A stretch of 64,000 nucleotides of DNA from Citricoccus sp. SGAir0253 (GTDB taxonomy: Bacteria > Actinomycetota > Actinomycetes > Actinomycetales > Micrococcaceae): contig NZ_CP039424.1 in assembly GCF_005877055.1 (NCBI RefSeq), positions 1,860,001 through 1,924,000 of the forward strand, in the 5' to 3' direction. Made by a program: the position numbers and the translations under genes. Position 1 is the first letter of the stretch, and each line of letters opens with the position of its first letter. Under the pieces are notes generated by a model. The model searched no databases, was not told where the DNA came from, and worked only from the letters and a program-made list of their open reading frames with translations. This document shows positions 2,261 through 40,866 of this stretch, one piece after another.

Positions 2261-4281
<2,021 letters not shown>

Positions 4282-4288
4282 GGGCCAT

Positions 4289-4295
4289 TCCTCCT
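4289..4295 (-). promoter_or_regulatory. Ribosome binding site of thrS
   Basis: Reads AAGGAGG on the minus strand, 8 bases before the GTG start at 4281. It decides between that GTG and an out-of-frame ATG at 4288, which is too close to the site to be used. Confidence 0.75.
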
Positions 4296-4387
4296 TGGTT
4301 GGGGCTTCACGGCTGGTGGCATACGGGGGCCACCGCCAGCCACCGGTCATTCTAGGGCAGGGCCGCAGGTCGGGCCGCCGGTGCCCG

Positions 4388-5510
4388 TCACGGGCGGGCG
4401 CCGGCCGGGAGTAGGCGGCGGGGCGGTGGCGAGGAGGCGGCTAGGAGGCGGCTAGGAGTCCACGGGGCGGCGGTGCGCCCCGCACCACCACCCCCACCGC
4501 GAGCGCGGGGGCGAGCGCATCCGGCGGCCGACGGGGCCGGGCCGGGACGCCAGTACCCGTTGCGCCGCGGCACCTGGCACGGGTCCTGGTAGGCGGCGGC
4601 GATGAACCACGGCACGCCGTGGCGCATCGAGATCCCCCACGAGCCGGCGTGGACGGCATGGTGGTGGTGCGAACAGGGCAGGACGCCGTTGTCCACGGAC
4701 GTGGGGCCTCCGTGCTCCCCGTGCTCGACGTGGTGCGCCTCGCACCACGGAGCGGGGATGGTGCATCCGGGGGCGGCGCAGCCGCCGTCGCGGGCGACGA
4801 GGGCGCGCCGGAGGGTGCGGGTGAGCAGCCGGCGCGACCGGCCGACGTCGAGCACCTCGCCCTCGCCGCCCAGCACCACGGGGACCAGGTCGGCGTCCCC
4901 AGCCCCGGACCCCTGCCACGACGGGCCGCCGGGGATGGCGCCGGGCGTCGGCATGCCGGCCGCCCCCTCTCCGCGGCGGGGGTTCGAGGCCGTGGACACG
5001 ATGGTCTTGAGGATCTCGTGCTGGCCGTCGGTCGCCATGAGGGACCAGCGGTGCAACCCGGCTGAGCGGCCCTTGTAGAACAACCCCTGGGCGGCCTGTG
5101 GCCGCCCGTCGGTCGGTTCCGCACCGTCGGGTCCACGACCGCCCCGAAGCGTGCCCGCCAGTGACCGCAGACCGTGCGCAGGTGTCCGGGTCGCACTCGC
5201 GGGCGGACGCCACCAGCAACCGCTCGCCCTCGCGGAGCATCTCGTCCACGGTCCCGGGCGCCGCGGGGAACCGGTAGGGCCACCGGGGTCTGCTCGTAGG
5301 CCTCGTCGACGAGATCTCCTCGACCTCGTCGACGTAGAGCCCCCACTCGTCAGCGGCGGCGGGGCTGGGCTGCCTTGGGAAGGCGGGCACGTGGACCACG
5401 AGGTCTGGTGTCGTCACCCGTCCGCACGGCTCGGCCAGGAGGACACGGCAGGCCTCGACGAGGTCGGCGGTATCCCCGGAGGACACGTCGTCCGGCACTG
5501 CGAGCGCCAT
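4388..5510 (-). pseudogene. DUF222/HNH endonuclease (13E12-type) gene, frameshifted
   Basis: Pieces of one DUF222-HNH protein lie in three reading frames. From an ATG at 5510 the N-terminal part (MALAVPDDVSSGDTADLVEA) runs to about 5310; related segments with HLRTVCGHWRARFGAVVDPT follow in a second frame; the C-terminal part from about 5083 is in a third frame and holds LFYKGRSAGLHRWSLM, GCAAPGC and the HNH-type stretch CEAHHVEHGEHGG...NGVLPCSHHHHAVH. No single frame covers the whole family fold, and the protein would be shorter than usual, so at least three frameshifts plus internal loss are needed. The zinc-binding HNH end is intact over about 230 codons, so a fragment could still be translated. 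These genes are multicopy in many actinobacteria and decay often. Confidence 0.75.
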
Positions 5511-5974
5511 GGCCCTCCCCTCCCCTGCTCGTCCGTTCGGCACCTGCCGTCCTGGTCCGGCGCCTGCGCCGATCCCGAATGACCTAGTACACATATTCGA
5601 ACACGGACCGGGGACGCCCACGGAGGCTCCCTTCCCCTGGGGGAGCAGATCGAGGCGGCGGCCCGGTGTGGAGGAGCCACCGCGGGCGCAGGGCCGGTGG
5701 ACGGAGCCGGAGGCGGAGCCAAGGGACGGAGCGCCCGGCATCCCTAGTGGCCCGCGGAGGGGTACGCCTACGCTGGGCCTCGCCGCGTGGCGGAGCCCGT
5801 CCCCGCCCGGGCAGGCCGGCGGCCTCGCGGTAGAGCCGGTCCAGCCGGGCAGACCCGCGCGGCACGCCCGTCCATCCCGCAGGCCGGCGCGATCGCCCCC
5901 CCCCCCCCCCCACACACACACGGCACCGCACGACGCCAGTCCCCTCGTCCCCCTCCTCCCGTCAGGATCCCGCC
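5511..5974. other. Intergenic region without a recognisable gene
   Basis: No coding frame here resembles a known protein. The notable content is the simple-sequence tract at 5896-5921 lying about 55 bases before the next start codon. No clear promoter hexamers were seen. Confidence 0.5.
5896..5921 (+). repeat. C16 homopolymer followed by a CA dinucleotide run
   Basis: Sixteen consecutive C (5896-5911) run directly into five CA/AC units. It sits 54 bases upstream of the RibD-like gene at 5975. Such tracts slip easily during replication and, in promoter or leader regions of other bacteria, change expression; nothing here shows that this one does. Confidence 0.9.
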
Positions 5975-6637
5975 ATGACCGCCCCTCGCCCGCCCCGTCC
6001 TCCCCGCGTCCGCGTGCACAACTTCGCGGTCTCCCTCGACGGGGTGGGCGCCGGCCGGAACCAGACCCTCGAGCGGCCGTTCGGTGACCCGGACCCCAGC
6101 CTGCTCATGTCCTGGGCCGGGGCGACGGACAGCTGGCCGAACCGCACCGAGCCGGGAGGCAGCCGCGGCCTCGACGACCACATCGTGCGGGACTTCACGC
6201 ACAACATCGGTGCCGAGATCATGGGGCGGAACAAGTTCGGCCCCGTCCGCGGCCCCTGGCCGGACGAGGACTGGAAGGGCTGGTGGGGCGACGACCCGCC
6301 GTTCCGCACCCCGGTGTTCGTGCTGACGCACCACCCGCGCCCCTCGTTCTCGCTCAGCGACACCACGTTCCACTTCCTCGACGCCGCCCCGCGGGACGCG
6401 CTCGCGGTGGCCCTGGAGGCCGCCGGCGGGAAGGACGTGCGCATCGGCGGCGGCGTGTCCACGGTGCGTCAGTTCCTGGACGCCGACCTCATCGACGAGA
6501 TGCACGTCGCCGTCGCCCCGCACCAGTTCGGCGACGGCCTGCGGCTGTGGGACTCGCCCACGGAGCTGGAGGACCGGTTCCGGCACGAGAGCGTCCCCAG
6601 CCCGAGCGGCGTGGTGCACCACTTCTTCTGGCGCTAG
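5975..6637 (+). CDS. Dihydrofolate reductase-like (RibD C-terminal domain) protein
   Basis: 220 residues forming a RibD_C/DHFR-like fold: VRVHNFAVSLDGVGAG at the N-terminus, EIMGRNKFGPV, and DVRIGGGVSTVRQFL near residue 155, the NADPH-binding glycine stretch of the family. The protein probably is an NAD(P)H-dependent reductase in the cytoplasm, but stand-alone members have no fixed substrate and no flavin or folate genes are adjacent. It is followed convergently by dnaE2, with 42 bases between the stops. The C16 tract lies just upstream. Confidence 0.8.
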   Translation: MTAPRPPRPPRVRVHNFAVSLDGVGAGRNQTLERPFGDPDPSLLMSWAGATDSWPNRTEPGGSRGLDDHIVRDFTHNIGAEIMGRNKFGPVRGPWPDEDWKGWWGDDPPFRTPVFVLTHHPRPSFSLSDTTFHFLDAAPRDALAVALEAAGGKDVRIGGGVSTVRQFLDADLIDEMHVAVAPHQFGDGLRLWDSPTELEDRFRHESVPSPSGVVHHFFWR

Positions 6638-6679
6638 GCGCCCGCGGTCGGGCAGGGTCGGGGTCGGGCAGGGGACCGC

Positions 6680-9600
6680 TCAGTCCTCCGGCGTCGGCAA
6701 CAGCTCCCACGTGTCCGGGTGCGGCACCGGCACGGGCCGGTGCCGGTCCCGATCGCCTGGGCGATCGTCCCGGCGATCGTCCCGCCGGACGCGGGGCACC
6801 GGGGCCATGCCGTTCCCGTCCCGGCCGCTCCCCGGACCGGGGCTCCCCCTCCGGTCGCCCCCGGTCGCCGAGCTCTCCGGCGGGAGCCCGACGGCGCCGC
6901 GCACCTTCACCGGCCAGTCGCCGGTGTCGTGGTGGGGGACGTCGGCCGGCCCCCGGGAGGGGGCACCGCCACCGGCCCCACCGCCACCCCCGGACCCTCC
7001 CGCCCTGCCGGCCCAGGCCGATGCGCGGTCACGCCGCAGCCAGGCCCGCCACTGCTCGCGGCTGTCGTCCAGGTAGTCGGGGTCCGGCAGCGTCTCGGGA
7101 CGGTGCAGGTCCCACGCCCGGACGGCCTGCAGGCTGATCGCCCGGGGGCCGGTCCGGCGCGTGGTGCCCTCGATCAGCAGGAGCCGGGCGGAGAAGAGCA
7201 TCTCCCCCGTCTCGTGCTGGGCCTCCGTGAAGAACGAGGCGTCCACGCACCCCGTGCCGTCGTCCACGGAGATGAAGACCACGCGCTTGCCGCTGCGCAT
7301 GGGCGGCGTCTGCGTGGCCACGCGCACCCCGGCGACCAGGACCCGTGACTGCGAGCGCAGGCGCAGCAGGTCCTCCGCCGCCGTCACCCCGAGCGCGTCC
7401 AGGTAGGGCCGGTGCGACTCCATCAGGTGGGCGGTGGTGTCCATCGCCGTCAGGTCCAGCTCGGTGCGCACCCGCTGGTCCCGGCTCGGGGCGGGGAACA
7501 TCGGCACGATCGCCGCGGCCTCCGTGTCCGGCAGGTCCAGGGACAGCTGGCCCTCGACCTGCCGTCGCGCGGCGGTGCGCCGGCGTCCGGTGGGGGTCTC
7601 GCCCAGGACCCCCGCCGAGCCGCCGGCGTGCTGCAGCTCGAGGTGGTGCACCAGGTCGGTCCGCGAGGCCCCGCCCGGGGGCAGCAGGCAGTCGAGCGCC
7701 CCGAGCTGGGCCAGCCGCTCGAGGTTGCGGCGGGTGGGCCGGGCGCGGTCGCGCACGTCGGCCAGCGAGGCGTACGGCTGCCCCGCCACGATCCGCCGCA
7801 CCTCCGCCTCGCTCAGCCCGGACATGGCGGTCAGCGCCAGCCGGATCCCCCACCGGCCGGGGGGACGGTCGCCCCCGCCGGCCTCGGGACGTTCGGGGGC
7901 CCAGCGGGTGCCGGGCACCTCGGGATGCGCCGGCACCCACTCCATCCGGAAGTGCTCGGTGGAGGCGTTGACGTCCACGGGCAGCACCGGGATGCCCATC
8001 CGGCGGGCCTCGGCGATCATCAGCCGGCGCGGGTACATGCCGGGATCGTGCTCCAGGACCCCGGCCAGGAACGCCTCGGGGTGGTGGGTCTTGAGCCAGG
8101 CCGAGTGGTAGGTGGGCACGGCGAAGGCGGCGCCGTGGGCCTTGCAGAAGCCGAAGGAGCCGAAGGCGTGCAGGGTGCCCCAGACCTCGTCGATGACCTC
8201 CAGCGGGTACCCCCGCTCCAGCGCCGCGGCCCGGAAGCAGGCCTCCACCGCCTGCTCCTGGGGTCCGCCGATCTGCCGGCGGAACTCGTCGGCCCTCGCC
8301 AGCCCGCAGCCGGTCATCACGTCCAGCGTCCGCAGCACCTGCTCGTGGAAGACGGTGACCCCGTGGGTCTCGGCCAGCACCGGCTCCAGGTCCGGGTGCG
8401 GGTAGCGGGCCCGCGCGAAGCCGTGCCGCTGCTCGAGGAAGGGCCGGACCATGTCCGACTGCATGGGCCCGGGCCGGAACAGGGAGATGTCGATGATCAG
8501 GTCGTTGAACTCGACCGGGGCCAGCTTCCCGATCAGCTCCCGCTGCCCGGGCGACTCGATCTGGAACACGCCCAGGGTGTGGGTGGTGCGGATCATCCCG
8601 AAGGTGGCGTCGTCGTCCAGCGGCACCTCCTCCAGGTCCACCCGCCGGCCGGTGGTGCGCTCGATCTCCTCCAGGGTGTAGGCGATGGTGGACTGCATGC
8701 GCACCCCGAGCACGTCCAGCTTGAGCATGCCCATCGGGTCCATGTCGTGCTTGTCGAACTGGCTCATCGGCAGCCCGATCCCCGAGGGCTGCACGGGGGT
8801 GCGGTCCAGCAGGGTCGCGTCCCCCAGGATCACCCCGCACGGGTGCATGGCGATGTGCCGGGGCAGGCGGTCCAGCCGCTCGGTGAGGTCCACCAGCAGG
8901 TCGAGCTGCTGCTGGCCGGCGGCGCGGCCGGACTCGATCCGCTCGGCGAACCCGCGCAGCTCCGGCATCCGCTCCAGGGCCTCCCGGAAGCTGGAGGCGG
9001 AGAACCGCCACAGCTGCTTGGCGATCCCGTCCACCTGCTCCGGCTCCATCCCCAGCGCCATCCCGGCGTCCCGGACCGCCCCGCGCGCGCGGTAGCCGTT
9101 CTGCATGCTCATCAGGGTGGTGCGCTCGGCGCCGAACCGGGCGAAGACCGCCTCGTAGACGTCGTGCCGGCGGGCGGACTCCACGTCCACGTCGATGTCC
9201 GGCAGGGTGGAGCGGTCGTGCGAGAGGAACCGCTCGAAGACCAGGTCGTGCCGCATCGGGTCCACGTTCGAGATCCGCAGCAGGTGGTTGACCAGGGACG
9301 AGGCCCCCGAGCCGCGCGCCGAGACCCGGACCCCCATCCCCTCGATCATCCGCACGACCTCCGCCACGGTGAGGAAGTAGCTGGCGAAGCCGAGCCGGGT
9401 GATGATCCCCAGCTCGTGCTCCAGCCGGTGCTCCAGCTCCCGGCCGGCCCGCGAGGACGAGAACCGGCCGCCCCGGCAGAGGTCCGGGAAGCGGGCGCCG
9501 GCCCCGGCGAGGGCACGCTCGCGCAGGACGGCGACCGGGTCCCCCTCGATCCCGATCACCGAGGCCTCGGGCACCGTGGGCCGGCCCCAGCCCAGGTCCG

Positions 9601-33656: not shown

Positions 33657-36431
33657 TCATCGCCGGTCGTAGCGGTACAGGATGGCCGCCACCTCGGCGC
33701 GCGTGATGTCGCGGTCCGGACGGAAGGTGCCATCGTCGTAGCCGCCCGCGAGACCCTCGCTCTCCATCCACGAGATGGCCGCGTGGTGGGCGCTCCAGGT
33801 CGGCACGTCCGGGAAGGACCGCGTGCGCGGCACGGTGTAGCCCGGACGGGCGGCCCGGTACAGGAAGGAGGCGAACTCGGCGCGGGTGACGTCCTCGCCG
33901 ACGCCGAAGGTGCCGTTCCCGTAGCCCTTGGCGATCCCGCGGTCCCTGGCCCAGCTGATGGGCTCGTAGAAGGTGTCCCCCTGGCGGACGTCGGAGAACG
34001 GCCGGGTGGAGGTGGGGGTGTAGGCGGGGTCCATGTACCGGTACACGAAGGCCACGGACTCGCCGCGGCTGATGCGCCGGGTCTTGCCGTACGTGTTCGT
34101 GGCCGCGTAGCCCTGGGACACGCCCGCGGTCTGCATCCAGTCCACGGCGTCGTAGAACGAGCTGCCCGGGGGGTTGTCCGCGAAGCCGCGGACGCAGCGG
34201 TCCGCCGTGTCCAGGTACGAGGTCTGCCCCTGGCGGTTGAGCAGCAGCCGGGTGATCGTCACCGGCGTGCTCGAGCGCGACACGAGGCGGACGTTCGATC
34301 CGCCCGGCAGGGACAGGGCGCAGTGGGCGGATCCCGACTGCAGGATCTTGATGGTGCCGACGTACCGGTAGTCGTCCTGGTACACGTCGAGGTGGGCGTA
34401 GCCGCCGGAGGGGACGTAGGTGGCGAAGGAGACCCGCCGGACCTGCTCGGTGTCCTCCACGCGGATCACGGAGTCCTTGCCCTGCGTGCGCACGGCGCGG
34501 CCCTCGATGCCGCTGGGCGCGGAGATGGAGGTCATCCGGGCGGTGTACAGGTCGTCGTCGTCCCAGGCGATGGGTCCGGTGTGCTGGCCGAGATAGGCCT
34601 GTGGCCCCACGGCTCCGTTGGCGACCGCGCGCACGGCGTACTGGGCGGTCTCCCCCGGCTCGTTCGTCAGCGTGGTGCTGGTGGTGGAGACCGTCTTGCC
34701 CGCGATCCACGGCTGGTTGCCCACGGCGCCGCCGTCGTGCGGCACGGCCCGGTACATGATCTGGTAGCCGGTGGCCCCGGGGACCGCGTTCCAGCGGGCG
34801 GTGGCCTTCAGCCCTGGCGTGCTCAGGACGTAGCGGTTCCACGGCAGGGTGGGCGCGGTGAGCGGGGTGGCCTGGCCATAGCGCGTGAGGGCGGCGTTGA
34901 CCCGCTGGTCCACGCTCGAGCGGATGGACGGGATCTTGGCGTCCAGGTACTGGCCCGGGCAGGAGGTGAAGTTCGTGACCTTGTGCCCCAGGATGGTGGG
35001 GACCGTGACCGTCGTGCCCGAGGTCCACCGTGCCGTGCCCTTGCCGCTCTGGGTGAGGCGGGTCGTCCCGGTGGGGTCCACGCCGTAGCGGTAGGCCTGC
35101 CAGGCCAGGACGCGTTCGATCGCGTCCACCATGGCCGCCGGTGCGGCGGCCTCCTGGTAGTTGCCCATGGCTGAGACGCCGATGGTGTCCGTGTTGAACC
35201 CCCCGGCCTGGGCCCCCATGACCGGGGCGTCGATCGAGCCGCGGCGGCCCTGGTAGATGGTGCCGTACTTGTCCACGAGGAACTGGTAGCCGATGTCCCC
35301 CCAGCCCAGGGTCTTGGCGTGGTAGGTGAAGATGCCGCGGATCTGGGCGTAGGCACCGGAGGGGGTATAGCTGTTCGAGCCTGCCGTGTGGTGGATGTAC
35401 AGCGCCTTGAGGTCCGTGGACGGGGTGCCGAAGTCCCGGACGATGGACTCGTCGGCGCCCCACTGGGCACGCGTGACGATCGCCGGCTTGAGCGCGTCCG
35501 CGGTGGAGTCGGTGTTGTACGCGACCGGCTCCGCGGCGGCCGTCCCGGTGAGCAGCCCCTGCTGCCCGGCCAGGGCGGGGGCGAAGGAGGCCTCCGCGCC
35601 CGTGGCCGGGGACGGCCCCGATGCCGGTGCGGCCTCGGGCACCGAGGAGGCGGCCTGCGGGGCGCCGGAGCCTGCCGCGGCCCGGCCGGCTGGGGCGTCC
35701 AGCGGCGCGGCAGCACCGGCGGGCGAGGCCGGCGCGAGCTCGCCGTCGGTCTCGGAGGTGCCCGGGTCGATGAGGGCGACCTCGAGGCCGGCAGGCGTCT
35801 TGCCGGAGGCGGTCAGCACGCGCACCTGGATGCCGTCGGCGCCGTTCGTGACGAGCGGCTCGGTGCCGGTGCGGGCGGCGCCGGGGCGCTCGTCGCCGTC
35901 GTGGACCTCCAGGGAGGACCAGTCCGTCCACTCCCCGCCCTCGCGGACGCGGATGGAGGCCTCGGATACGGGGTCGGTGCCGTCGATGTCCCACGTCAGG
36001 CCAGCGATGAGGAAGTCCTTGGTGGCGGTCGGCTCGCTCAGCGCGGCGAGCTCGTCCACGTCGTCCTCCGGCAGGGCGGTCTCGGCCAGTTCCTGCTCCA
36101 CGGGCTCCGCCTCGGCCGAGGACGACGGCGAGGGGACCGGGGCGCCGGCCCGGCCGGTGATGGCCTCCTCCGGCAGCTCCGCGGGGACCTCCTCCGGGAG
36201 CGCGTCGGCACTGATGCCGTCCACGGGGATGGACTGCTCCGCCTTGCCGACGACCGGGGCGGCCTGCCGGCCGGGGGCTGTCGTCGAGGGGGTTGCCTCG
36301 ACGGCCGGTGCCGCAGGTGCCTGGGGCAGTCCGGGGGCTGCCGTGGCGGGGAGGACGGTGGTCGCTGCCAGCGTGGCCGCCAGGGCGGTGGCGGCGCAGG
36401 TACGCAGGGCAGGGCGAAGGGCCAAAGGCAT
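33657..36431 (-). CDS. Secreted PGRP-type N-acetylmuramoyl-L-alanine amidase with SLH repeats
   Basis: 924 residues. Sec signal peptide (residues 1-32: basic start, ALAATLAATTVLPATAA); a Pro/Ala/Glu-rich region; a beta-rich domain of about 150-230 (ATKDFLIAGLTWDI, GEWTDWSSLEV); a second Ala/Pro linker; PGRP/Amidase_2 domain of about 315-490 with zinc ligands in YIHHTAG and GHKVTNFTSCPGQYL plus IGYQFLVDKYGTIYQGR; a fibronectin-like stretch; three C-terminal SLH repeats (from about 735: FYDAVDWMQTAGVSQGY, FYEPISWARDRGIAKGY, HHAAISWMESEGLAGGY). It cleaves the lactyl-peptide bond of peptidoglycan and is anchored through the SLH domain to a cell-wall polymer. Single gene with its own promoter region. 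Confidence 0.92.
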   Translation of the reverse strand: MPLALRPALRTCAATALAATLAATTVLPATAAPGLPQAPAAPAVEATPSTTAPGRQAAPVVGKAEQSIPVDGISADALPEEVPAELPEEAITGRAGAPVPSPSSSAEAEPVEQELAETALPEDDVDELAALSEPTATKDFLIAGLTWDIDGTDPVSEASIRVREGGEWTDWSSLEVHDGDERPGAARTGTEPLVTNGADGIQVRVLTASGKTPAGLEVALIDPGTSETDGELAPASPAGAAAPLDAPAGRAAAGSGAPQAASSVPEAAPASGPSPATGAEASFAPALAGQQGLLTGTAAAEPVAYNTDSTADALKPAIVTRAQWGADESIVRDFGTPSTDLKALYIHHTAGSNSYTPSGAYAQIRGIFTYHAKTLGWGDIGYQFLVDKYGTIYQGRRGSIDAPVMGAQAGGFNTDTIGVSAMGNYQEAAAPAAMVDAIERVLAWQAYRYGVDPTGTTRLTQSGKGTARWTSGTTVTVPTILGHKVTNFTSCPGQYLDAKIPSIRSSVDQRVNAALTRYGQATPLTAPTLPWNRYVLSTPGLKATARWNAVPGATGYQIMYRAVPHDGGAVGNQPWIAGKTVSTTSTTLTNEPGETAQYAVRAVANGAVGPQAYLGQHTGPIAWDDDDLYTARMTSISAPSGIEGRAVRTQGKDSVIRVEDTEQVRRVSFATYVPSGGYAHLDVYQDDYRYVGTIKILQSGSAHCALSLPGGSNVRLVSRSSTPVTITRLLLNRQGQTSYLDTADRCVRGFADNPPGSSFYDAVDWMQTAGVSQGYAATNTYGKTRRISRGESVAFVYRYMDPAYTPTSTRPFSDVRQGDTFYEPISWARDRGIAKGYGNGTFGVGEDVTRAEFASFLYRAARPGYTVPRTRSFPDVPTWSAHHAAISWMESEGLAGGYDDGTFRPDRDITRAEVAAILYRYDRR

Positions 36432-36903
36432 GACGGTTTCCCTCAGAGAGACGCGCGGTGGTGGGCGCCTCTCGGGCGCCGCGACCCACTCAGGATAGCA
36501 ATCATTGGTTGCATTTGGGTTACTCCAGTCACATTTTCACCACTGTTCACGTGAGCTACGCGTGTCGTTCGTGTGCGTCTCGAGACCTGTGACGTAGGCC
36601 TCCATCGGGTCCCAAGTGGCCCATGACGAGGGACGTTCTGGCCGGATGCCGGGGCCTTGAGGTAAAGGCAGCATCACGGTGCGGGCACGGATCCCCCGTG
36701 CCCGGCCTCTCGCGAGGACGGGTCGCTTGAGCCAAAACTGAGGATCTCGCGGGAAAACTGCAGGGCCGCTGCAGCGGGACTGCCGCGCATCCACCCCTGA
36801 TCCCGATCTCTCAGCCGCAGGCACCACCGTGGCGACGAATGCTACGGCTACCCGTCAATGCCGGCGGTAGGACATCGGATCAGGGAACAGCACGCCTGAT
36901 GCC
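36432..36903. other. AT-richer intergenic region between the amidase and the helicase gene
   Basis: Next to the amidase start it holds TATCCT (36492-36497, minus strand, a possible -10), the inverted repeat GCAA-N7-TTGC (36499-36513) and spaced GTTAC/GTCAC/TTCAC pentamers (36519-36550) that resemble MtrA-type direct repeats. The rest contains a hairpin at 36682-36704 and two CTGCAG inverted sites at 36758-36774. No protein-like frame was recognised. Confidence 0.5.
36682..36704 (-). terminator. Possible terminator of the helicase-nuclease gene
   Basis: CGGGCACGG, a 5-base loop and the exact complement, about 200 bases past the helicase stop on the minus strand. Far from the stop, hence uncertain. 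Confidence 0.4.
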
Positions 36904-39900
36904 TTATGTGCAGAGGATCGTGTCAACCAAGGCCTCGATCTCCGCCGAGGAGATTGATCCGTCGGGGCGGTCCCTGGTGATGATGAGACGCCCGTCGGCC
37001 CGCTTCGTTGACCCCTCACCCCACGGGTGAATGCCGTGGTCGCGGTACCAGCGCAGTTTCTCCTCCCATTTCCTCCGGTAGGAGTCGTTGTTCAGCATGC
37101 CGAGGTGTTCCCAGTAGTAGGTCTCGCCGGTGTCGGCATCCTCGATGGTGAAGTCAGGGAGCCGCGTCATCCCTCCGCGGACCAATGGTTGCTCGTAGGC
37201 GAAGTCGATTCCCTTCGAATAGAGCAGATCGGCGATGATGACCTCGGATTTCGATCGGACGTGGATGCCCTTTCGAGCGTGGTGGATCAGCCCCTTCTCC
37301 ATGTACCGCCCATCGACCTCCACCGGCTGGGGGTCGCTGAACAGGTTGGTCATCCTCGCCGCGGTCTCCGAATAGCGAGGCGACGCGTAATCGCGCAATT
37401 CGCTCAGATTCCCCTGCAGGAGCAGCACGACACGGTGTTGGTGCCTTGTCAGGGCGGTGTAGAGGAGCTCCCGACTCAGCAGGCGACAAGGGCTGGGAAT
37501 GACGATGAGCGTCGTCCCGAACTCACTGCCCTGGGCCTTGTGGACCGTCAAGGCATAGGCCAGTTCCAGCCCCGGGCTGCCATCCTCGTCCCCCAGGTCT
37601 GATCGCCAGTACTTGTAGGCGACGTCCGGTTGGGTGGCGAACTCCACCTCCCACTGGTTGAGCGAGATCTTGGCTCCCTTTCGCCTGAAGGGACCAACGA
37701 CGACGCCGATCTCGCCATTGGCCACGTATTCCAAGGCCTTGCCCTCAGGAGGGTAGAAGTGCTTTCGTGCCTTGTTCCGGACGTTGATGACCTTGTCCCC
37801 ATAGACAATCTCCTGGGGTCCAGTCGGGGCCGGAATCCTCCGCCTCCATGGCGTCTGTTCGTGGGCCAACTCGCGGACGGAGGATCGATACGTGTGCTGG
37901 AGGTAGCGGTTCAACTCGTTGACACCGCCAGCGACGCTACGGACCGGCGAGAGTACTTGCCACGATTCGGCGCATTTGGCGCTGCCCCTGTTGAAATACG
38001 CGTAATCACCGATGACCGTGCCGCCATAGGACTCCTGGAACCCCAACTCATCGTCAGGGTCCTTCATCAGCTCCAGGGAGTTCGCCAACTCGGTCCGCAG
38101 CAGATCGTGCAACTCAGACGGGGTGGACCACTGGCGAACCGCCAAGGTCTCGAACTCGGTCCGGCGTTGCAGGTCGTCCCACACGCTGTCCGATCCCGGG
38201 GGTACATCCGCACCGGAGAACCAGTCAGCAAGCACCATGTCCGGCCGTTCGGTATCGCCGTCCCCCCTGGCATCGACCTTCGTGACGGAATTTGCAGGCG
38301 GTCCACTCTTCTTCTGGACGTGACGACGCTTGATGGTGAGTTCGGCAAATGACGCGTCAACGAGGGGAAAGCCGGTCACATGATGCGCGGAACGGAGGTA
38401 TTCAACGATGTCCACGAAGGGACGGCCTACGCCGATGGGTGGCAACTGACGAGGGTCCCCCACCAAGACGAGTCGCTTGTAGCCGGCGAGCCCGTCCAGG
38501 AGGGCATCGAGTTGTTCCTCCGTGAGCATCGAGCACTCATCGATGATGACGGTGGCGAATCCCCGGCGGGGCGGGGCATCGGACCGCCGATACCGTCCGG
38601 TCTCGGGGTCGTACCTTCCCGACTTCACGAGGAATTGGGCGATCGTCTGTGCCGACCGCCCGATCGCCGACTGCATGCGCACGCGTGCCTTGCCGGTGGG
38701 CGCCAGGAGGAGGATGTCTTCGTTTGCAATCCCCGTCAGGGAACACAACACTTCCAGCAGCGTCGTCTTCCCGGTCCCCGCCGGTCCGATGAGGACGGAC
38801 AACCGTGACTGCGCCAGCGACTGCAACGCGCGCGCCTTCTCGCGACGGGCGTTTTCCTCGTCCACGTCACCCTTTGGAAAGTCCCCCAGCCGACGGTCGA
38901 TCTCCCCGCGCCAGTCGGCTTCGACGGGTAGCGACTTCGCCTCCAAACGTTTCCGCACGAGGGTGGAGATCTTGTCGCGCGCGGCGTGCAGGCGGGACAA
39001 CTGGTAGGCAGGCTTGCCGTCGCCCATCATCACCGTGGTGATCTCTGGGGCGAAGTGACCTTCCGCCACGGCCATGACGTCCTCCGTGACCGGGCAGGAG
39101 GGGTCCAGGGGGGCATCCCTGACGGCCTGAACCAAGCGGGCCTGGGACATGAGGGAATGGCCCTCGTTGCCGGCGCGTTCGAGCTGGTCGATCGCCATCG
39201 CCCGGACGCGGCGTTCGTCCAGGCCGTCCTTCACGCGGGCCTTACCGGCCACGGGATGTGCCTCCCGGAGGGAGTCGGTGGGGAAGACTCCTCGATCGAT
39301 CGTGGAGAACGCCGTGGGATCGGGGCGGAAGCGATCAACCTCGAAGATGCGATACGGGTTGTCGAGCAGTTCCCCGTCGCTGATGTCGATCCCCGCCGTG
39401 ATGCGTTCGGAGCCGACGAACATCCGCGTAGCCTGCTCGATCGTGAGGTCGAATCGCGAGAGCAGCATGAGCAGGTCTCGCCGGTCCTGACGAAGAGCGA
39501 GCCACGTCTTGCACAGCATCTGGCTCGGGACGGGGTGCAGGTTCAGGAACTCACTGGGGTCGCGGAATATCCGGTCCACGACGTCCCACGGATTATCGCC
39601 CTCGTGAACCATGCTCCGGACGGCGTACGAGAGCAGGACGCCCTGCGGCATGCCGAACGCCGTCAGGGCCGCTCCCAGGCCGGGAAAGGCGCCGCGCGCC
39701 CGCCATGCTGCGGCGACCTCGGCGTTCAACCAGGACCGGACGCGATCCCACTCGCCGGGCACCACTTGGGCGAATCGCTCGACGCTCGCCGTCAGGGCCA
39801 GCAGCAGGTTCAGGGCCGCGTCATGGGTGACGTGCTCGGTGGCGTACGAGAACTGCTCCGTGAACTCCTCGGGGACCAGCACGACGTACTCACTGGGATC

Positions 39901-40671
39901 GAGGCCCCGCTGTTGAGACACATCCATGAGGTGCTGGTACGGCAGGAGGAAACCGTCCTCCATCGTGGGACGGATGGAGTGTTGGACGGGGGTCTCCCAC
40001 GTCACCGACTCGAAACCGCCGCGGCGGTTCCCATATGCCTGGCTGGGGGTCCAGCCCGTCACACGGCCGACGCCCACCAGGACGCGCCGCGGATCGTCGG
40101 ACAACGGAGTGTCCTTCGCGTAGAAGAACACCAATGACGCACCGGGCTCGACCGCTGAGAAGAAGGTGTCCAGCATGGCCCGCTGGTTGCGCCCGTGCTG
40201 GATCCAGGCGGGGTCGTTCAACTTCGCCTCGGCGTCCACCTGTTCCTCCAGGCGGTATTCGAAGTCGATGCCGTGCACGTCAGCAAGTCGCACCGCATTG
40301 TCCCGGAGCAACCAGCGGAACGGCACGCAATCCGCGGAGTACGCCGGCAGGTCGAGCCGGACAGGCTCGAACTTCCGGTAGACCTCGTTCCATTCCGCGT
40401 ACGGGTGTTCCTTGGAGACGCTCCGGGACCTGGCGGACATGAATCCGGCGCGTTCCAGGTGACAGGGCGGCAGTTCCGCTCCTGGCAGTTCTGCCCACGA
40501 CTTGCCGGCGTGCGCTACCTCTAGTGCGTCACAACGCTGTTCGGCGATGCGCTTGAGGCGTAGGCACGAGCCGTTGTTGAGGGGGTCCGCGCAGACATGC
40601 CCGTTCCACCCCGAATCGTGCCAAGGTATCCGGACCGACAGGTGCTGATATGGCAAGGATCGTGCTTTCAT
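36904..40671 (-). CDS. RecD-like SF1 helicase with Cys-rich N-terminus and C-terminal PD-(D/E)XK-like nuclease
   Basis: 1255 residues, not a family I can name. Residues 1-80: PYQHLSVRIPWHDSGWNG followed by Cys27, Cys36, Cys47 and Cys70-His71, possibly zinc-binding. About 95-330: uncharacterised, with SLVFFYAKDTPLSDDPRR. About 600-1100: SF1 helicase of RecD type with Walker A LIGPAGTGKTTLLE (627), DECS (712), GDPRQLPPIG (735), TVHKAQGSEFG (1043) and LLYTALTRHQHRVVLLL (1073). About 1120-1255: nuclease-like domain RSKSEVIIADLL, RLPDFTI (1171) and YYWEHLGM (1188), with His where the ExK lysine is expected. GC is low (52% by hand count at 37201-37260). No partner gene. The architecture suggests nucleic-acid attack, perhaps anti-phage defence; this is inference. 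Confidence 0.85.
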   Translation of the reverse strand: MKARSLPYQHLSVRIPWHDSGWNGHVCADPLNNGSCLRLKRIAEQRCDALEVAHAGKSWAELPGAELPPCHLERAGFMSARSRSVSKEHPYAEWNEVYRKFEPVRLDLPAYSADCVPFRWLLRDNAVRLADVHGIDFEYRLEEQVDAEAKLNDPAWIQHGRNQRAMLDTFFSAVEPGASLVFFYAKDTPLSDDPRRVLVGVGRVTGWTPSQAYGNRRGGFESVTWETPVQHSIRPTMEDGFLLPYQHLMDVSQQRGLDPSEYVVLVPEEFTEQFSYATEHVTHDAALNLLLALTASVERFAQVVPGEWDRVRSWLNAEVAAAWRARGAFPGLGAALTAFGMPQGVLLSYAVRSMVHEGDNPWDVVDRIFRDPSEFLNLHPVPSQMLCKTWLALRQDRRDLLMLLSRFDLTIEQATRMFVGSERITAGIDISDGELLDNPYRIFEVDRFRPDPTAFSTIDRGVFPTDSLREAHPVAGKARVKDGLDERRVRAMAIDQLERAGNEGHSLMSQARLVQAVRDAPLDPSCPVTEDVMAVAEGHFAPEITTVMMGDGKPAYQLSRLHAARDKISTLVRKRLEAKSLPVEADWRGEIDRRLGDFPKGDVDEENARREKARALQSLAQSRLSVLIGPAGTGKTTLLEVLCSLTGIANEDILLLAPTGKARVRMQSAIGRSAQTIAQFLVKSGRYDPETGRYRRSDAPPRRGFATVIIDECSMLTEEQLDALLDGLAGYKRLVLVGDPRQLPPIGVGRPFVDIVEYLRSAHHVTGFPLVDASFAELTIKRRHVQKKSGPPANSVTKVDARGDGDTERPDMVLADWFSGADVPPGSDSVWDDLQRRTEFETLAVRQWSTPSELHDLLRTELANSLELMKDPDDELGFQESYGGTVIGDYAYFNRGSAKCAESWQVLSPVRSVAGGVNELNRYLQHTYRSSVRELAHEQTPWRRRIPAPTGPQEIVYGDKVINVRNKARKHFYPPEGKALEYVANGEIGVVVGPFRRKGAKISLNQWEVEFATQPDVAYKYWRSDLGDEDGSPGLELAYALTVHKAQGSEFGTTLIVIPSPCRLLSRELLYTALTRHQHRVVLLLQGNLSELRDYASPRYSETAARMTNLFSDPQPVEVDGRYMEKGLIHHARKGIHVRSKSEVIIADLLYSKGIDFAYEQPLVRGGMTRLPDFTIEDADTGETYYWEHLGMLNNDSYRRKWEEKLRWYRDHGIHPWGEGSTKRADGRLIITRDRPDGSISSAEIEALVDTILCT

Positions 40672-40786
40672 GTGGCCCCCGCACGGGTCATAGGCGGGGA
40701 CCGGATCGCGCTGCCATCACGCCCGAATCCCCCGTTGACGTGGACTTCTCCTGAGGCCAATATCCCAGACGGCCCGGGCGAAATGA

Positions 40787-40820
40787 AGGGGAGCCGCCTG
40801 ATCTCTCAGGCGACTCCCCT
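40787..40820 (-). terminator. Rho-independent terminator of nrdHIEF
   Basis: 15-bp stem with one mismatch (AGGGGAGCCGCCTGA against TCAGGCGACTCCCCT), 4-base loop, and TTCATTTC following in the minus direction. It starts 46 bases past the nrdF stop. Confidence 0.8.
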
Positions 40821-40866
40821 CGGGACGTGTCACAAGGACAGCGATTCGGATATCACTGGAGCGGGA

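Follow-up and report, generated by a model that had tools for sequence, protein, structure and literature searches.

The window analyzed here, 64,000 nucleotides of contig NZ_CP039424.1 of Citricoccus sp. SGAir0253 (positions 1,860,001 to 1,924,000), carries on its minus strand a gene of 1,255 codons plus stop (36904..40671) for a helicase-nuclease that matches the PADLOC family PDC-S68. As an earlier note made from the sequence alone had described, this gene stands by itself between an amidase gene and nrdF. Its open reading frame (ORF) begins with ATG, has no internal stops and is the single match within its own genome. It is not a chance frame, because 45 other near-full-length homologues (25 to 71% identity) align with the protein end to end, and the ATG start is plausible because the first residues align with those of the nearest relative, a protein of Arthrobacter sp. 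(71% identity). Codon positions 1, 2, and 3 of these two genes differ by 23.1%, 14.2%, and 56.5%, respectively (1,240 aligned codons), consistent with selection on the encoded protein. The domain order is an N-terminal candidate EVE/YTH-like reader, a RecD2-like helicase, and a PD-(D/E)XK-type nuclease; the combination of N terminus, helicase, and nuclease-like C terminus in one gene had been noted before, and all the motifs then listed (IPWHDSGWNG, SLVFFYAKD, SEV, PDF, and EHLG) are present.

PDC-S68 is a candidate family represented by the models PDLC05064-66, of which PDLC05065 matched residues 7-1252 with 1563.9 bits, on positions 4-1218 of a 1221-position profile. The protein thus has a catalogued counterpart of the same length, and the earlier view that it fits no named type does not hold. 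Nhi, to which it had been compared, was rejected, since the PADLOC Nhi model reached 12.3 bits over residues 617-742 only. In the literature searched (bioRxiv preprints as such lie outside it), we found no publication naming PDC-S68, no paper combining 'PDC-S', RecD, and PADLOC, no report of an experimental test of the family, and no printed version of the reader-motor-nuclease domain reading. The family is already catalogued, and the new part is the proposed architecture and mechanism.

All parts of the protein described below are encoded on the minus strand. The motor is preceded by a helical region (residues 306-484; 39220..39756), which is covered from residue 362 by a match to phrog_4412 (exonuclease V; residues 362-757). 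The superfamily 1 (SF1) helicase core (residues 485-1090; 37402..39219) matches the RecD2 structure 3e1s with an E value of 3.7e-27. It contains Walker A (GPAGTGKTT, residues 629-637; 38761..38787) and a Walker B region (IIDECSM, residues 709-715; 38527..38547). The key residues of Walker A, Walker B, and motifs III, V, and VI (K635, D711, E712, Q742, H1044, Q1047, G1048, and R1076) are identical in all 46 aligned proteins, in line with the full set of RecD-type motifs previously claimed; judged by sequence, the ATPase motifs are intact. The RecD-type SH3 insert was matched weakly (16.9 bits; cut-off, 41). The RecD2 equivalog model TIGR01448 scored 204.8 bits, under its cut-off of 500, by which the protein was ruled out as a RecD2 equivalog and does not fall into this housekeeping repair family.

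The C-terminal domain (residues 1115-1255; 36907..37329) models as a PD-(D/E)XK fold with an alpha-beta-beta-beta-alpha-beta core and acidic residues, and by fold it is a predicted nuclease of the EDxHD/Vsr-like type. The first acidic residue, Glu1143 of SKSE (37243..37245), is conserved in 46/46 full-length proteins, and both PDF (residues 1172-1174; 37150..37158) and YYWEHLGM (residues 1185-1192; 37096..37119) are invariant in the 57 aligned domains. The earlier assignment to PD-(D/E)XK nucleases is supported by the modeled fold, but the suggestion that His replaces Lys is not: the His of WEHLG (46/46) occupies the x position of ExK, and the place of the canonical Lys, two residues past the last acidic residue, is taken by Leu1190 in 46/46. 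Fold comparison, with 3r3p among the structures considered, revealed resemblance to the EDxHD nuclease I-Bth0305I, Vsr, Bax1, and archaeal Holliday resolvases. The genome search retained 80 loci, of which 27 (L054-L057 and L059-L081) match through this domain only, and the occurrence of the module in varied proteins indicates a nuclease coupled to several kinds of partner. Some of these loci encode stand-alone proteins of ~260 amino acids (aa), found mostly in Clostridia, and the WEHLGM module was also seen in RecQ-like helicase fusions scoring with the PsyrT and DpdF models (L066 and L077), in an MkoB-like fusion (L054), and in a zinc-ribbon fusion; two short frames (L055 and L056) may be remnants of longer genes. 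All 7 C-terminal-only proteins scanned were matched by PADLOC S68 models via the WEHLGM module alone, so that these models may over-call unless coverage is required.

Residues 1-305 (39757..40671) resemble, in their model, an EVE/YTH (PUA-like) fold that appears to be split by an insertion. In the first segment (residues 1-25), R14 and W17 are invariant and H10, H18, D19, and W22 nearly so. The mainly helical insertion (residues 26-172; 40156..40596) contains Cys27, Cys36, and Cys70, which are invariant in the 46 proteins and may form a metal site. The Cys-rich character noted earlier is thus real for these three residues, but Cys47 is a Cys in the window protein itself only (1/46) and position 71 is variable. 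The second half of the EVE/YTH-like core (residues 173-305; 39757..40155) contains the sequences SLVFFYAKD and VLVGVGRV. Several aromatic residues are conserved (W17, 46/46; W22, 44/46; Y184, 46/46; W225, 45/46) and would suit a base pocket. EVE/YTH/ASCH-type chains occupy all 50 listed VIA rows, including THYN1 with 5-methylcytosine (5mC) DNA and VcaM4I; the best rows belong to YTH domains of Mmi1, some of them complexed with RNA. These data lend moderate support to a function as a modified-base reader. The EVE assignment itself is weak, which counts against this interpretation. Pfam EVE (PF01878) gave no match in residues 1-305 at E values up to 1 and was absent from the top 25 rows obtained with the full-length protein. 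Part of the region had been called unfamiliar; the N terminus is conserved, and its likeness to a modified-base reader had not been pointed out. A McrB-like protein at another locus (L153, 271-2730) has a Pfam EVE domain at 411-530, and its N terminus (ITWQENYWTG, VFFYSGGYIVGIYG) appears by eye to be a possible second, undetected EVE-like domain resembling that of the window protein.

The gene is a late, horizontal acquisition in this genome. No full-length homologue was found in the 58 relatives, which include 7 congeners; 18 match in part, through pieces of the helicase core. All 7 congeners have nrdF, and in five of them (G001, G002, G004, G006, and G007) the gap between nrdF and the amidase gene is 265-482 bp, versus 4,435 bp in the window. 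At this site congener G003 carries ~4.5 kb of other genes (L113, about 3550-8010; by eye a membrane protein, an M28-like peptidase, and a methyltransferase), and in G005 a full-length amidase match was not found. The GC content at third codon positions (GC3) is 0.815, compared with 0.936-0.994 across 11 neighboring genes. The AT-richer codons reported earlier hold in this sense, and the two GC counts given (31/60 bases at 37201-37260 and 45/60 at 6001-6060) are exact, but total GC is no special feature of the gene (0.641), since nrdF (0.620) and nrdE (0.647) are low as well; GC3 is the real compositional signal. Vertical conservation with host codon usage was hence not observed.

Homologues of PDC-S68 occur in many bacterial phyla and some archaea. 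The spread is patchy: with centre genomes counted, the N-terminal profile matched 2/396 genomes in the phylum of the window and 5/398 in that of Aminobacter, always within a long frame (884-1270 aa), and this low number indicates a rare, accessory gene. On a quick tree of the 46 proteins, which has three long branches, phylum labels required 24 changes, versus a minimum of 13 and a mean of 29.0 in 200 shuffles, and were thus more clustered than in the shuffles. Of the 440 plasmid records that matched at all, 6 carry near-full-length homologues. Two short records from human faeces that are classed as phage (MT837260 and MT839248) also contain near-full-length homologues (31% identity) and are possibly stray bacterial fragments.

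We compared the surroundings of 20 homologues (ORFs of ≥120 aa within 4 kb on either side, one flank being shorter) with 20 control stretches, each of 8 kb, from other parts of those contigs. In the flanks, 116 proteins matched 163 PADLOC families (E ≤ 1e-20), whereas 142 proteins of the control stretches matched five, namely, mad3 (3 proteins), mad8 (1), and three RtcR models (1 each), with no restriction enzyme or SNF2 helicase among them; these counts are of families, not of distinct proteins. Among the first 25 Pfam families of the flank proteins were ResIII (5 proteins), SNF2 (4), and N6_Mtase (3), whereas transport and metabolism headed the control list. BLAST clustering of the flanks of 49 loci, with one representative scanned per main cluster, placed a DrmD/BrxH-like SNF2 helicase near 11 loci. 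Of type III genes, a methyltransferase lay near 5 loci and a restriction enzyme near 3; of type I genes, a methyltransferase and a restriction gene each lay near 3. At least 14/49 loci had one or more of these genes nearby. A simple greedy procedure was used to call the flank ORFs (≥90 aa for clustering). Since their positions vary among loci, the defence genes are neighbors and not fixed partners. One homologue (L014, 7968-12482; 1505 aa) has ~250 extra residues C-terminal of the nuclease domain and is directly followed by a DrmD-like helicase gene. Absence from the 58 relatives, the tight nrdF-amidase gap in five of the seven congeners, the atypical GC3, and the defence-rich flanks together provide good, if indirect, support for a defence role, in agreement with the single-gene, horizontally acquired defence helicase-nuclease proposed earlier.

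Considering these data, we read the PDC-S68 protein, with a probability of about one half, as a one-protein, type-IV-like restriction machine against phage and other mobile DNA, horizontally acquired and composed of an EVE/YTH-like reader, a RecD2-like motor, and a nuclease. The N-terminal domain with its Cys-containing insertion would bind a modified base in foreign DNA, the motor would load beside this site and unwind or travel along the DNA with ATP, and the C-terminal domain would cut the DNA. We infer the reader function, and likewise the strand cut and the dependence of activity on modification; the chemistry of the base is conjecture, and the protein may protect against phage. The proposed order is in keeping with the scheme described for restriction enzymes that contain EVE, apart from the different motor (PMC7641849).

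The alternative that survives best, although we consider it unlikely, is a defence helicase-nuclease that senses DNA ends, forks, or other non-self structure, similar in use to RecBCD or Gabija, in which the PUA-like domain merely grips nucleic acid. Bax1 (the nuclease partner of the XPB helicase), Vsr, and archaeal Holliday resolvases, all similar in fold to the C-terminal domain, act on DNA structures or mismatches, and the RecD2-like core and the weak EVE call are compatible with such a role; the uniformly EVE/YTH/ASCH-type VIA rows, with THYN1 and VcaM4I, and the aromatic residues that would suit a base pocket speak for a base reader instead. Less likely than end or structure sensing, and improbable overall, is an enzyme aimed at RNA, whether modified or foreign, or at an RNA-DNA hybrid. 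Eukaryotic YTH domains read N6-methyladenine (m6A) in RNA, and Mmi1 heads the VIA rows, but DNA is the substrate of RecD2-like helicases and of nucleases of the EDxHD/Vsr type, and DNA restriction genes are neighbors in relatives. Furthermore, an archaeal YTH-McrB has been reported to bind m6A in DNA (PMC7641849). A host repair or recombination enzyme without a defence role, which the RecD2-like core and the adjoining nrdHIEF genes might suggest, is the least likely, being disfavored by the absence of the full gene from relatives, the scarcity of the N terminus, the defence-rich flanks, and the number of phylum changes on the tree, even though the latter is below the shuffle mean.

The restriction machine that we favor differs from known systems in its combination of parts. 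It shares the SF1 core with all motifs with RecD2 but has additional N- and C-terminal domains. In the EVE/YTH modification-dependent enzymes (EVE-McrB, EVE-HNH, and EVE-PD(D/E)XK), the motor is McrB or absent, whereas here it is RecD2-like; the 2020 EVE survey does not mention 'RecD' in its main text (PMC7641849). The nuclease resembles I-Bth0305I (an EDxHD homing endonuclease), Vsr, and Bax1 in fold and differs in its fusion to an SF1 helicase and its motif SKSE...PDF...YYWEHLGM. PDC-S69 and the stand-alone or fused WEHLGM proteins share the C-terminal module only; no N-terminal reader was matched in them, and their partners are RecQ-like (PsyrT/DpdF-like), MkoB-like, or none.

The gene is bordered by two intergenic regions. 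That toward the amidase gene (36432..36903) resembles by eye, at its amidase-side end, the amidase-upstream sequence of congener loci L116 and L117. That toward nrdF (40672..40866) contains a G+C-rich hairpin (40788-40819) read by eye, which the terminator scan did not list. The C-terminal part (~residues 745-922) of the amidase gene product (33657-36431) gave many additional matches across the genus, with 5-24 per genome.

PDC-S68 is widespread, yet as far as we found it is just a catalogue name. We tentatively propose that it represents a separate class, in which an EVE/YTH-like sensor would detect phage base modification, a RecD2-like motor would open the DNA there, and a Lys-less EDxHD/Vsr-like nuclease module, lent also to other defence-like helicases (PsyrT/DpdF-like and MkoB-like), would destroy it. 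If the reader call is true, sensing, moving along, and cutting of modified DNA would be united in one protein, with a RecD2-like motor where EVE systems have McrB. Phages with modified bases would then be the predicted targets, and the system could be tested with one cloned gene.
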